Source: Acidobacterium sp.
Lineage (GTDB): Bacteria > Acidobacteriota > Terriglobia > Terriglobales > Acidobacteriaceae
Reading direction: 5' to 3'
NCBI GenBank assembly: GCA_003166955.1
Contig: PMUI01000105.1
Span: forward strand, 1-46,047
DNA length: 46,047 bases
The translations under genes and the position numbers were made by a program. Numbering within the stretch: position 1 is the stretch's first letter; each line of letters begins with the position of its first letter. The notes below the pieces were generated by a model. The model saw only the letters and a program-made list of their open reading frames with translations, made no database searches and was not told where the DNA came from. Positions 13,067 to 16,102 of this stretch are shown piece by piece.

Positions 13067-13261
13067 CTACCTGCGACTCGATTTGCGCGCACGCAGGTGG
13101 CGGATCCGCGCGTAGCCGAGGCTGGCCGCGGCGACGATGAGGCCGAGGATGAGGGTGGGGTTCTCGGGCGAGTCGTCGCATCCGGTGATCTGCGCGTGCA
13201 GCCGGGCCGAGGCAGCGAGAACGAGCAGAAGAACGGGAAGGATGACGGTGAGCTTTTTCAC
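13067..13261 (-). CDS. PExPT-CTERM micro-protein, copy 1
   Basis: 64 residues. The N-terminus is a signal peptide (VKKLTVILPVLLLVLAASAR, cleavage near HA-Q). Then comes a very short core, QITGCDDSPENPT, holding the PExPT motif as PENPT. A hydrophobic helix (LILGLIVAAASLGY) and an Arg/Lys-rich tail (RIRHLRARKSSRR) complete a PEP-CTERM-like sorting signal of the kind processed by exosortases. If both ends are removed, only about 10-13 residues with one Cys remain. The GTG start at 13261 has GGAG seven bases upstream; the longer reading frame runs into the antisense of the NHL gene. It lies just downstream of the NHL lipoprotein (52 bp) and upstream of vapB. No exosortase gene is in the window. 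Confidence 0.75.
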   Translation of the reverse strand: MKKLTVILPVLLLVLAASARLHAQITGCDDSPENPTLILGLIVAAASLGYARIRHLRARKSSRR

Positions 13262-13313
13262 GGGCGATCTCCGAAATAAGGTGTGGGTTGGTCCCTGGGG
13301 CACCGGTCGGGGG

Positions 13314-15212
13314 TTACGGCCGGGCACCCAGCTCGTTGTTCTTGAGGGCGACCGAGAGCGGCGTAACGACGGGGGTGGCGGCGCCAATGACTTCGATAAT
13401 GTCGTCATTGCCATCGTTCGCGACCCAGACATTGCCGGAAGGGTCGATGGCGAGCCCCTCGGGGTTAGCCAGAGCCAGGTTGGCCGGCAGGGTTCCCTGA
13501 TAGCCCGTACCGGAGGAGATGGCAGTTCCGGAGTTATAGAACTCGCTGATGCTGGCGCCCGAGAAGTTCGCGGTCCAGACGTTGCCAAGGCCGTCGACAG
13601 CCACACCGTAGGGAACGTTCAGGCCGCCACCCGCGAAGCCGGTGCCGGAAACTTCATGGGAATTGGTGTCGAACTCGCTGAGCACGCTGTTGCCTTCGTT
13701 CCCAAACCAGATATTTCCCGAGCTGTCGATAGCAACGCCGAGGGGATCATCGGTACCTCCGCCGGTGATGCCGCCGCTGGGGGAGATGGGTACACCCGAG
13801 GTGAAGAACTCGCTGATGCTGCCGTTACCGTGGTTGGCGACCCAGATGACGGGCCGGGGGTCGATGGCGATAGCGATGGGATCGTTGAGACCCCCGCCGG
13901 TGTAGCCGGTGGAAGAGAAGGCAGTGCCGGAAGAGTTGAACTCACTGATGCTGTTGTTACCCAGGTTAGCGACCCAGACGTTGCCGGATGGATCAATGGC
14001 AAGACCCCAGGGATTGTTGAGGCCGCCGCCGGTAAAGCCGGTGCCAACGAAGCCGGTGCCAGGAACGTATTTGCTGATGGTTGTTGTGCCCTGGTTGGTG
14101 ATCCAGATATTGCCGGCCTGATCGATGGCCAGGCTATTGGGCGAGGTGACGCCGCCGCCGGTATAGCCGCCGGCCGGCGAAAGGGCTGCGCCCACGGGAC
14201 TGAATTCGCCGATGCTGTTGTTGTCGTTGTTGGTGACCCAGACGTCGCCGGTGGCATCGACGGCGACGTCGGTGGGTCCGTTCAGGCCGCCGCCGGTATA
14301 GGCGATGGCGATGGTCCAGTCATTGGGAGTGCTGGTGGTGAGGCTGGGCTGGAAGGGGGCAGTAGGGGTCTCGAGGTCCCACAGCGCGGTTACGTTGGCG
14401 CCGGGGACGTGGGCGATATTAATTGCGGCGGTAGCGGTGTTAGTGGGGGGGGCGGGATTGGAGGGCGCATTGGTGAACAGCGTGGTGCAGGCGGTCGAGC
14501 TGGGGCCGGAGGAGTTGACGCAGGCGGCGAGGATGTTGGCCAGAGTGTTGATCTCGGTCTGGGGCACGGTGCCATTGCCGGCGGGGGTGGTGGTGTTGGC
14601 GTCACCGGTGCCGAGGTTCACGAGGTTGGCCGCGGTGAGGGCGGCGTTCGCCATACCGGGACTACCGCCCTTGCCCGACATCTGGACAGGACTGTAGTTA
14701 AAGGCCGCAAAGGCGTAGGCGGCGGCAATGGTGGTGGCTTCATTCATTTGGACGGAGGGCGGCAGATTGGCGAAGCTGTTATTTGCTCCGCAAGTGCCGA
14801 GCACAGCCATGAGGCCAATCGCGGAGTTGGCGCCGCCGCCAATCTGGGGGTTACCGCCGACGGAGAAGAGATAGACCTGGGTGCCCGCGGTGCAGGCGTA
14901 GGCGTTGGCAGGAATAGTGAAGCCGCCGGTGGAGTCTGTCAGCACATAGTAGTGGCCGCTGCTATCCGGGGGATTGCCGGTGTGGCTATTGAGCAGAGAA
15001 GTCGCGAGTCCGCCGTAGCCGCCGGTCGCCGGCGAGTAAAGGTAGACTTGTGAGCCGGCGATGGGTGCCTGTCCGCCGTGGACCCTCCCGTGAAAGGCGG
15101 AGACGGTGGGCGTCGCAGGATCGGACGTAACAATCGGACTATGGTTGGGCGCCATCCCGCAGCCGGCGATGAGAACGATGGAACAAGTAGAAAGGATCCA
15201 GGCGAATCGCAT
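13314..15212 (-). CDS. NHL-repeat lipoprotein, copy 1
   Basis: A 632-residue predicted lipoprotein, lipidated at C18 in the lipobox LIAGC. After the anchor comes a domain beginning [20 protein letters not shown] (carboxypeptidase-regulatory-like or Ig-like), about 30-250. Six or seven NHL/Vgb-type propeller repeats follow, each with [22 protein letters not shown] wording (VAID.SGN.WVAN...ISEF). The C-terminus [14 protein letters not shown] is shared with copy 2. No lyase residues are evident, so it is probably a binding or scaffold propeller on the outer membrane or periplasmic face. The start at 15212 gives the lipobox signal and has GGAG upstream. It is probably transcribed with the PExPT gene 52 bp downstream. 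Confidence 0.85.
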
Positions 15213-15292
15213 GGCTCGTCTTCTCCATTCGGTCGATTGGTGATTGATCGTAGCAGCGAACCGGGAGCCAACAAAAGTAGTCGCTGGGGTGC

Positions 15293-15322
15293 AGAGTAGC
15301 ATGGCGTCCACCTGTGCAGCAA
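15293..15322 (-). promoter_or_regulatory. Predicted promoter of NHL lipoprotein copy 1
   Basis: On the minus strand TTGCTG (15322-15317), 18-bp spacer, TACTCT (15298-15293) with an extended TGC before the -10. The same arrangement is conserved upstream of copy 2, which supports function. The leader would be about 75 nt. Confidence 0.5.
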
Positions 15323-15498
15323 TTGCAATCTGGGGGTGGCGCGAGTCTGCTGTATTTCGATTTGAAAACCGGGCGCTGTCCGGATCTTCGACCGTGTCCG
15401 ATCGCGAAATTCGCACGAATGCGGGTGGCGATTGATGGCGCCTGATTTTCATGATCGCGGATAAGGGATGTTACGCATTTTGTCGTGACAGGACTGGT

Positions 15499-15664
15499 TT
15501 ACCAGCTGAAGTTGAGGTTGACGTCGGGCAGGACCGAGGTTCCTTCGAGGCGTACTCCGTCGAGTTGATTGGGATCGAGGCCGAGGGCGCGCAAGGATCA
15601 GGTCGGATGTGGGGTCGGGGACGGTGTCACAGGAGATGCCGGAGACTGTGGTGACGTTGGGCGG
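15499..15664 (-). pseudogene. Phosphodiesterase relic (partner of the 18430-20151 gene)
   Basis: Two separate pieces of the downstream phosphodiesterase gene are fused here. 15499-15598 matches its last 33 codons (the region encoding LDPSQLDGVRLEGTSVLPDV in the intact gene) with a handful of substitutions. 15599-15661 matches its middle (VTTVSGISCATVPDPTSDL). The whole 5' half and the segment between the two pieces are missing and the frame is broken between them. It sits at the junction of the two cassette copies and marks the upstream end of an ancestral duplicated unit. Confidence 0.8.
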
Positions 15665-15846
15665 GGGAGACCCGCTTTCCGCGAGCGGGAAGCATTCCTC
15701 TGAGCGCGGTGATGGGGAGCACAGGCAGAATGGCCACCGTGCCATCCGAATGGATATTTGATCCGGTCGCCGGGCTGGAGGCCGAGGTGCTCGCGAATGG
15801 GTTTGGGGATGGTGGCCTGGCCTTTGGAGGTGATGGCGGATTCCAT
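15665..15846 (-). pseudogene. Frameshifted and truncated vapB copy
   Basis: The first 30 codons match the intact VapB (MESAITSKGQATIPKPIREH, LGLQPGDRIK). A one-base-type frameshift follows; in the next frame the match resumes (PDGTVAILP, then TALRGMLPARGKRV). The C-terminal inhibitor tail and the whole vapC partner are missing, and the sequence runs into the phosphodiesterase relic. The upstream operator is intact. Confidence 0.8.
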
Positions 15847-15859
15847 GGGCTCTCGCCTC

Positions 15860-15887
15860 GGTATTACATTTTAGCAGAAGTAATACC
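15860..15887. promoter_or_regulatory. Orphan copy of the vapBC operator
   Basis: GGTATTAC (15860-15867), 12-bp spacer, GTAATACC (15880-15887), identical arms and spacing to the working operator at 13021-13048, in front of a dead vapB. It could still bind VapB or VapBC. Confidence 0.55.
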
Positions 15888-15907
15888 TGGAGACAGCCGG
15901 GAGCGGG

Positions 15908-16102
15908 CTACCTGCGACTCGATTTGCGCGCACGCAGGTGGCGGATCCGCGCGTAGCCGGTGCTGGCCGCGCCGACGATGAGGCCGAGGATGAGGGTGGG
16001 GTTCTCGGGCGAGTCGTCGCATCCGGTGATCTGCGCGTGCAGCCGGACAGAAGCAGAAAGAACGAGCAGAAGGACGGGAAAAATGATGGCGAGCTTTTTC
16101 AC
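15908..16102 (-). CDS. PExPT-CTERM micro-protein, copy 2
   Basis: 64 residues, paralog of the protein at 13067-13261. Signal peptide VKKLAIIFPVLLLVLSASVR, then the same short core QITGCDDSPENPT, the same hydrophobic helix with two changes (LILGLIVGAASTGY) and an identical basic tail. Amino-acid differences between the copies fall in the signal peptide and helix, none in the predicted mature core. About 73 nt spanning the core are identical in the two genes. The GTG start at 16102 has GGAG upstream. It follows NHL lipoprotein copy 2 by 61 bp, repeating the order of the first cassette. Sorting by an exosortase is inferred from the motif. Confidence 0.75.
   Translation of the reverse strand: MKKLAIIFPVLLLVLSASVRLHAQITGCDDSPENPTLILGLIVGAASTGYARIRHLRARKSSRR

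Follow-up and report, generated by a model that had tools for sequence, protein, structure and literature searches.

Twin PExPT-CTERM mini-protein genes of an Acidobacterium are candidate cargo-less substrates of exosortase J and lie beside NHL-repeat lipoprotein genes

The window analyzed here, the whole 46,047-nucleotide stretch of contig PMUI01000105.1 from Acidobacterium sp. (assembly GCA_003166955.1), carries twin genes for 64-residue mini-proteins of the PExPT-CTERM type. In the reading that we favor, at about even chances, both mini-proteins are cargo-less substrates of exosortase J (XrtJ). Processing would leave, on the outer side of the inner membrane, a peptide some 12 residues long that contains the Cys and likely works with the predicted NHL-repeat lipoprotein encoded upstream of each gene. 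The evidence comprises family membership, a single XrtJ in the genome, the co-occurrence of mini-protein and enzyme, a near-fixed length, a Cys that hardly ever varies, a core under selection, and gene linkage with NHL lipoproteins, with XrtJ and, in one genus, with bamA. A sequence-only reading of the window had proposed the micro-peptide and guessed at the lipoprotein as its partner; as a whole, that interpretation is partly supported. The micro-peptide is the best account of the genes, albeit an unproven one, and the partner guess gains clear support from the comparison of genomes. The relevant features are:

13067..13261, minus strand: PExPT-CTERM mini-protein copy 1, 64 amino acids, GTG start; TIGR04200 60.5 bits, cut-off 40
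13154..13192, minus strand: core of copy 1, QITGCDDSPENPT, residues 24-36, the predicted mature peptide plus the motif Thr
15908..16102, minus strand: PExPT-CTERM mini-protein copy 2, 64 amino acids, GTG start; TIGR04200 61.2 bits
15995..16033, minus strand: core of copy 2, QITGCDDSPENPT, DNA identical to the core of copy 1
13314..15212, minus strand: predicted NHL-repeat lipoprotein copy 1; PF01436 95.1 bits, lipobox IAGC
16164..18107, minus strand: predicted NHL-repeat lipoprotein copy 2; PF01436 99.6 bits, model with beta-propeller matches at a predicted local distance difference test score (pLDDT) of 88
12918..15330, no strand: tandem duplication unit 1 (NHL gene, PExPT gene, start of an AbrB gene), 79% identity to unit 2
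15756..18192, no strand: tandem duplication unit 2, 79% identity to unit 1

The two 64-residue open reading frames exist where the sequence-only reading had placed them, as genes of 195 nucleotides each on the minus strand. The GTG starts at 13261 and 16102 were chosen by homology and by the GGAG before each; the mechanical list of open reading frames extends both further upstream, to 179 and 172 amino acids. Each protein runs from a predicted signal peptide ending in LHA through the core QITGCDDSPENPT and a hydrophobic stretch to a basic tail. Neither was matched in a Pfam search. By score (60.5 and 61.2 bits against the curated cut-off of 40) both belong to TIGR04200, as had been proposed; they share the size and layout of this family, from which the genes themselves differ in nothing. 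Database annotations also give it as the Joint Genome Institute (JGI) "XrtJ-associated TM-motif-TM protein" and as Pfam PF27850. Homologs extend beyond the locus: a profile search returned 2837 proteins at E ≤ 0.001 among 7995 candidates scored. Many of the best 120 of these 2837 matches bear the JGI name, and the gene family is therefore already catalogued. Its named members come from Acidobacteriota, including Granulicella. In the window's genome there are five intact copies, and a sixth is a pseudogene (C38, two stops). The TIGR04200 match, together with three more intact copies and the pseudogene, excludes chance, and the twin genes are a real, conserved and catalogued system rather than an artefact. 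Searches of the open-licence literature by family and enzyme names found no paper describing TIGR04200 or exosortase J, and among open-licence papers combining two of the terms PEP-CTERM, Acidobacteriota and NHL repeat no title concerns the family. New here are the NHL linkage, the PExPT-XrtJ-bamA clusters, the linkage to exopolysaccharide loci, and the match between the Cys and the extra domain of XrtJ with its C-x4-C.

The sequence-only reading presupposed an exosortase of the matching subtype, and the genome encodes one. Its XrtJ scores 401 bits with TIGR04199 (cut-off 200), 111 bits with PF09721 (cut-off 25.7) and 48 bits with TIGR04178 (cut-off 23); the gene lies on contig C90, divergent from one mini-protein copy. 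A scan of this genome with PF09721 revealed no second exosortase, XrtJ being the sole match. In a sample of 347 genomes from the phylum, the same 15 carry mini-protein and XrtJ above cut-off. In a sample of 300 from the family, both are present in 32, the mini-protein only in four (G022, G046, G099 and G292), XrtJ only in one (G248) and neither in 263. G022 and G046 have XrtJ-like pieces below cut-off beside the mini-protein, and G248 has a weak mini-protein match adjoining its XrtJ. Co-occurrence was evaluated by the Fisher test with related genomes treated as independent; as they are not, the test values overstate certainty.

Selection on the core was estimated from the ten pairs of the five intact copies in the window's genome. 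All 34 differences counted within the ten core codons G27-T36 are synonymous, and none changes an amino acid. The ratio of amino-acid-changing to synonymous differences (pN/pS) is 0 in the core, 0.72 in the signal peptide, 0.28 in the helix and 0.87 in the tail, and the pattern holds after removal of one window copy. Judged from these codon comparisons, purifying selection is strongest on the core, and the proposal that the core is held more tightly than the signal peptide is borne out. In G292, too, conservation is highest in the core (0.09, compared with 0.61, 0.43 and 0.82 for the others). This genome, in which no exosortase was found, carries seven mini-protein genes (L140-L146), five of them with the motif SPEDPT. 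One might regard the mini-protein genes as decaying, unexpressed relics, in keeping with the pseudogene C38. The strong purifying selection on the core across the five intact copies and the GGAG ahead of both window starts speak against decay, and we consider it very improbable.

The likely anatomy of the product emerges from 86 non-redundant mini-proteins, drawn from the window, the loci and the first database search. An AQ site of the signal-peptidase type directly precedes the core in 78 of the 86. From the Q at this predicted cut to the second P of PExP there are 11 residues in 39 and 12 in 27 of these 78. The Cys stands exactly three residues ahead of SPE (or a variant) in 84/86; of the remaining two, the protein of locus L129 has the Cys with a one-residue insertion and that of G022 is without Cys. 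Among the best 120 database matches, a set biased to the strongest, all have it. A tail-only profile gave 59 places in 30 genomes, one of which (G074:C4, E 0.015) was judged to be chance. Fifty-six of the remaining 58 tails are cargo-less, and two have cargo before the Cys (about 120 residues in G258 and about 65 in G248). Because two tails carry cargo, the PExPT-type tail is likely a real sorting signal; from its sequence, the mini-protein looks like such a signal with almost nothing ahead of it. The cargo in G258 (L169) is Gly/Pro-rich and ends in GCSDSPENAT, and that in G248 (L130) ends in CTPSPENGT and adjoins a divergent XrtJ. For the window sequence QITGCDDSPENP the computed monoisotopic mass, unmodified and with the Cys reduced, is 1274.51 Da, or 1257.48 Da as pyroglutamate. 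The mini-proteins share with PEP-CTERM/exosortase systems the signal peptide, motif, helix, basic tail and dedicated exosortase. They differ in that the usual substrates bear a cargo protein.

For the Cys, the MYXO-CTERM tag with its needed Cys is by analogy the best parallel. In the available part of PMC11980579, that tag likewise has a Cys just ahead of the helix and an Arg tail, and its conserved Cys residues are required for cleavage; the Cys, helix and basic tail of this layout are present in the mini-proteins. The MYXO-CTERM enzyme, as given there, is a CAAX-type protease (myxosortase) with typically dozens of targets per genome, in contrast to the exosortase here. The parallel invites an alternative in which the Cys acquires a lipid, in the manner proposed for MYXO-CTERM, before XrtJ takes off the C-terminal helix to leave a lipopeptide tether. 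The GC ahead of the helix and the basic tail would mirror MYXO-CTERM (PMC11980579, in the part available), the Cys keeps its fixed place in 84 of the 86, and ITGC in the window fits the four-residue lipobox pattern. However, L, V or I at position -3 is found in 39 of the 84 Cys-bearing mini-proteins and is missing from 45. In addition, the AQ site, of signal-peptidase I type, falls between the hydrophobic stretch and the Cys in 78/86, and it is the CAAX-type protease, not an exosortase, that cuts MYXO-CTERM in that source. We regard the lipopeptide as unlikely. Lipidation was raised in the sequence-only reading; at a lipobox it is, by these residues, probably not a feature of the family.

The cargo-less-substrate reading assigns the Cys a counterpart in the enzyme. 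The exosortase Cys and Arg are invariant in 29/29 aligned XrtJ sequences, and XrtJ is set apart from other PEP-CTERM exosortases by an extra domain and by an Asp at the usual His position. The extra domain spans approximately residues 396-550 at the C-terminus, after one further predicted helix (model pLDDT 78 overall), and by the positive-inside rule is probably periplasmic. It contains C-x4-C in 33 of the 35 called proteins. Of the two exceptions, G080 carries the domain with C-x4-C in another frame, and the 309-residue enzyme of G022 is without the domain; G022 is also the source of the only mini-protein of the 86 without Cys. In this genome (L154) the gene for the shorter XrtJ-like exosortase overlaps that for the Cys-less mini-protein. 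Structural matches of the extra domain, at middling Z, are to folds of the DcrB, SciW and PsbP-like kinds, and its comparison with EpsI gave an hhalign probability of 0.1 (against just three sequences taken as EpsI-like).

The neighborhoods of 62 mini-protein genes in 34 genomes were surveyed, with approximate gaps. Thirty-four of the genes lie ≤300 nucleotides from XrtJ. At these 34 loci an NHL lipoprotein gene occurs within 2 kb in 14, bamA lies downstream in 17, and three have neither. The other 28 loci have an NHL gene ≤510 nucleotides away in 13 and Wza/Wzz-type exopolysaccharide genes in four. The PExPT-XrtJ pair upstream of bamA occurs at these 17 loci in one genus (g64, Granulicella; L109, L112, L114, L116, L119-L129, L138, L139), and the adjacent bamA is the genome's best BamA match in 7/7 such genomes tested. 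Mini-proteins of a SPECPT subtype adjoin Wza/Wzz-type exopolysaccharide export genes (L137, L147, L148, L157); more SPECPT copies are found at L149 and L150, near rmlA-like genes (one scanned), and at L151. Adjacency of enzyme and target genes is likewise a trait of dedicated pairs of the rhombosortase type, in the part of PMC3237569 available. In dedicated sorting pairs one enzyme serves one target, whereas here a single enzyme can serve several targets that have no cargo.

The same adjacency might indicate that the mini-protein, rather than being a substrate, is a small membrane protein of two helices that acts as subunit or chaperone for XrtJ, its N-terminal helix uncleaved and its periplasmic loop conserved; this would take the JGI term "TM-motif-TM" literally. 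The 34/62 genes that adjoin XrtJ are in keeping with this, and in related sets the second helix is better conserved than the tail (pN/pS 0.15-0.43 vs 0.44-0.87). Over all pairs, however, conservation of the second helix (0.64) hardly exceeds that of the signal peptide (0.72). Moreover, the AQ site is kept in 78/86, five of the six copies in the window's genome are away from XrtJ, and a similar tail stands behind about 65 and about 120 residues of cargo. On balance a subunit role is doubtful.

Linkage to NHL lipoproteins is the second strand of the cargo-less-substrate reading. In the window the NHL genes lie 52 (copy 1) and 61 (copy 2) nucleotides upstream of their mini-protein genes, on the same strand. 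Each of the six copies detected in the window's genome (one a pseudogene) has an NHL neighbor, as do 27/62 overall, and the lipoprotein link thus reaches far past the present locus. Taken as the proteins that match that of the window at E ≤ 1e-60, the NHL subfamily occurs in 16/16 mini-protein-positive and 3/22 negative genomes, the test genomes being hand-chosen. The cyanobacterial protein ScyF offers a precedent. In the accessible part of PMC4870267 (and by the name of NF035926) it joins an NHL propeller and a PEP-CTERM tail in one protein. It was in the wild-type exoproteome (2/3 replicates) and not in that of the exosortase mutant (PMC4870267, PMC12188702, as far as the accessible parts go). 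The partnership is plausible because ScyF combines NHL repeats with such a tail and was not seen in the exoproteome of the mutant; by analogy, the fusion suggests that NHL propeller and exosortase tail belong together. Unlike in ScyF, the propeller here bears a lipobox and the tail is encoded by a gene of its own; the window lipoproteins score 63 and 60 bits with NF035926, below its cut-off of 350, and their C-termini show a TP..P motif but no helix with basic tail. An alignment of the window proteins and relatives (A3) displays at this end a conserved motif of P-x2-TP type, with P629 and P633 invariant and T632 nearly so; four further Cys, beyond that of the lipobox, are invariant.

The NHL link could also be a by-product of an ancient tandem duplication of a neighboring pair, with no shared function. 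The two units of the window are simple tandem duplicates, the copies in this genome are paralogous units, and half of its examined NHL loci are without a mini-protein. Against a mere by-product, NHL genes also stand beside XrtJ-linked mini-proteins in other genera (14/34 XrtJ-linked loci), and from genome to genome the subfamily goes along with the mini-protein. We think it improbable that the link has no functional content.

Taken as a mechanism, the cargo-less-substrate reading would proceed in two cuts. One, by signal peptidase I, is predicted behind LHA (A-Q), and the other, by XrtJ, at or close to PENP-T; what remains outside the inner membrane would be the peptide of about 12 residues with its Cys. 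The tail would be a genuine CTERM signal, its cargo reduced to the motif. In the product the Cys may be the group that does the work, and XrtJ may handle it through the C-x4-C of its predicted periplasmic domain, either in a disulfide exchange or as a site of acylation. Once complete, the peptide would help to place or hold surface components, among which the NHL propeller lipoprotein is the one linked in this genome.

Several observations qualify this reading or weigh against it. The first, a qualification, concerns the twins themselves, in which 12 codons differ and none of these is in the core. The sequence-only reading had pointed to about 73 identical nucleotides around the core, next to lipoproteins matching at only about 70%. 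The core is indeed identical and the run is 74 nucleotides (13132-13205 vs 15973-16046), and the lipoproteins share 72% of their residues (67-85% per 150-nucleotide block across the genes). Further identical runs of 61 and 51 nucleotides are found in the tail, beyond the stop codon and where the following gene begins. Because identity is not confined to the core and the whole 2.4-kb unit (NHL gene, mini-protein gene, AbrB gene start) is tandemly duplicated at 79% identity, the run points to local homogenization as readily as to selection, and is weak evidence. The second group of observations concerns the enzyme. Mini-proteins are kept in G292 (completeness 93%) and G099 (100%), in which no exosortase was detected, and for five XrtJ copies the 16-kb locus, upstream side included, shows no mini-protein motif. 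The usual active-site triad of exosortases is Cys, Arg and His. XrtJ has Asp at the usual His position in 35/35 sequences, where three other exosortases from the same bacterial family have His (position set by spacing to a conserved Gly); since Asp replaces His, catalysis by XrtJ may differ. The match of Cys and extra domain turns on the single exception G022 and is a hint. The third group concerns the partner. It is bamA, not an NHL gene, that adjoins 17 of the 34 XrtJ-linked loci, and 11/62 mini-protein genes are without any named neighbor within 6 kb. The mini-protein-negative genomes G107, G263 and G270 keep the NHL subfamily, and their genus also has positives. The window's genome has many NHL paralogues; of the 12 loci examined, six have a mini-protein gene nearby and six do not, two of the latter ending at contig ends. 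Finally, the family is patchy even within the genus, with members above cut-off in 1/12.

A bolder version would make this an exosortase system that mainly yields a peptide: XrtJ would excise the 11-12-residue Cys peptide from a tag without its former cargo, pass it through the C-x4-C hairpin of its own extra domain, and couple it, as a genetically encoded tether or label, to partners in the envelope such as NHL propeller lipoproteins and the BamA-dependent or exopolysaccharide machinery. This we hold to be a long shot. To our knowledge, the action of exosortases on their substrates is still largely obscure. The cut site of archaeosortases is called unclear in the part of PMC11980579 available. 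The putative mini-protein substrate is little more than the motif itself, of near-fixed length, with one near-invariant Cys and in a system of few genes; cut site, acceptor and Cys modification would thereby be directly readable by mass spectrometry. The NHL lipoprotein gives a specific candidate partner in cultivable acidobacteria.

Further observations concern the surroundings of the two units. Between them, at 15490-15598, is a 109-nucleotide stretch that is a 90% copy of 18421-18528, the 3' end of a type I phosphodiesterase gene at 18430-20151, and perhaps a duplication remnant. A PIN/AbrB toxin-antitoxin-like pair (12359-13050) follows unit 1, and the palindrome GGTATTAC-N12-GTAATACC sits between the mini-protein gene of that unit and the AbrB start. 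At unit 2 (15598-15890) a near-identical palindrome is kept, and AbrB is present only in truncated form.

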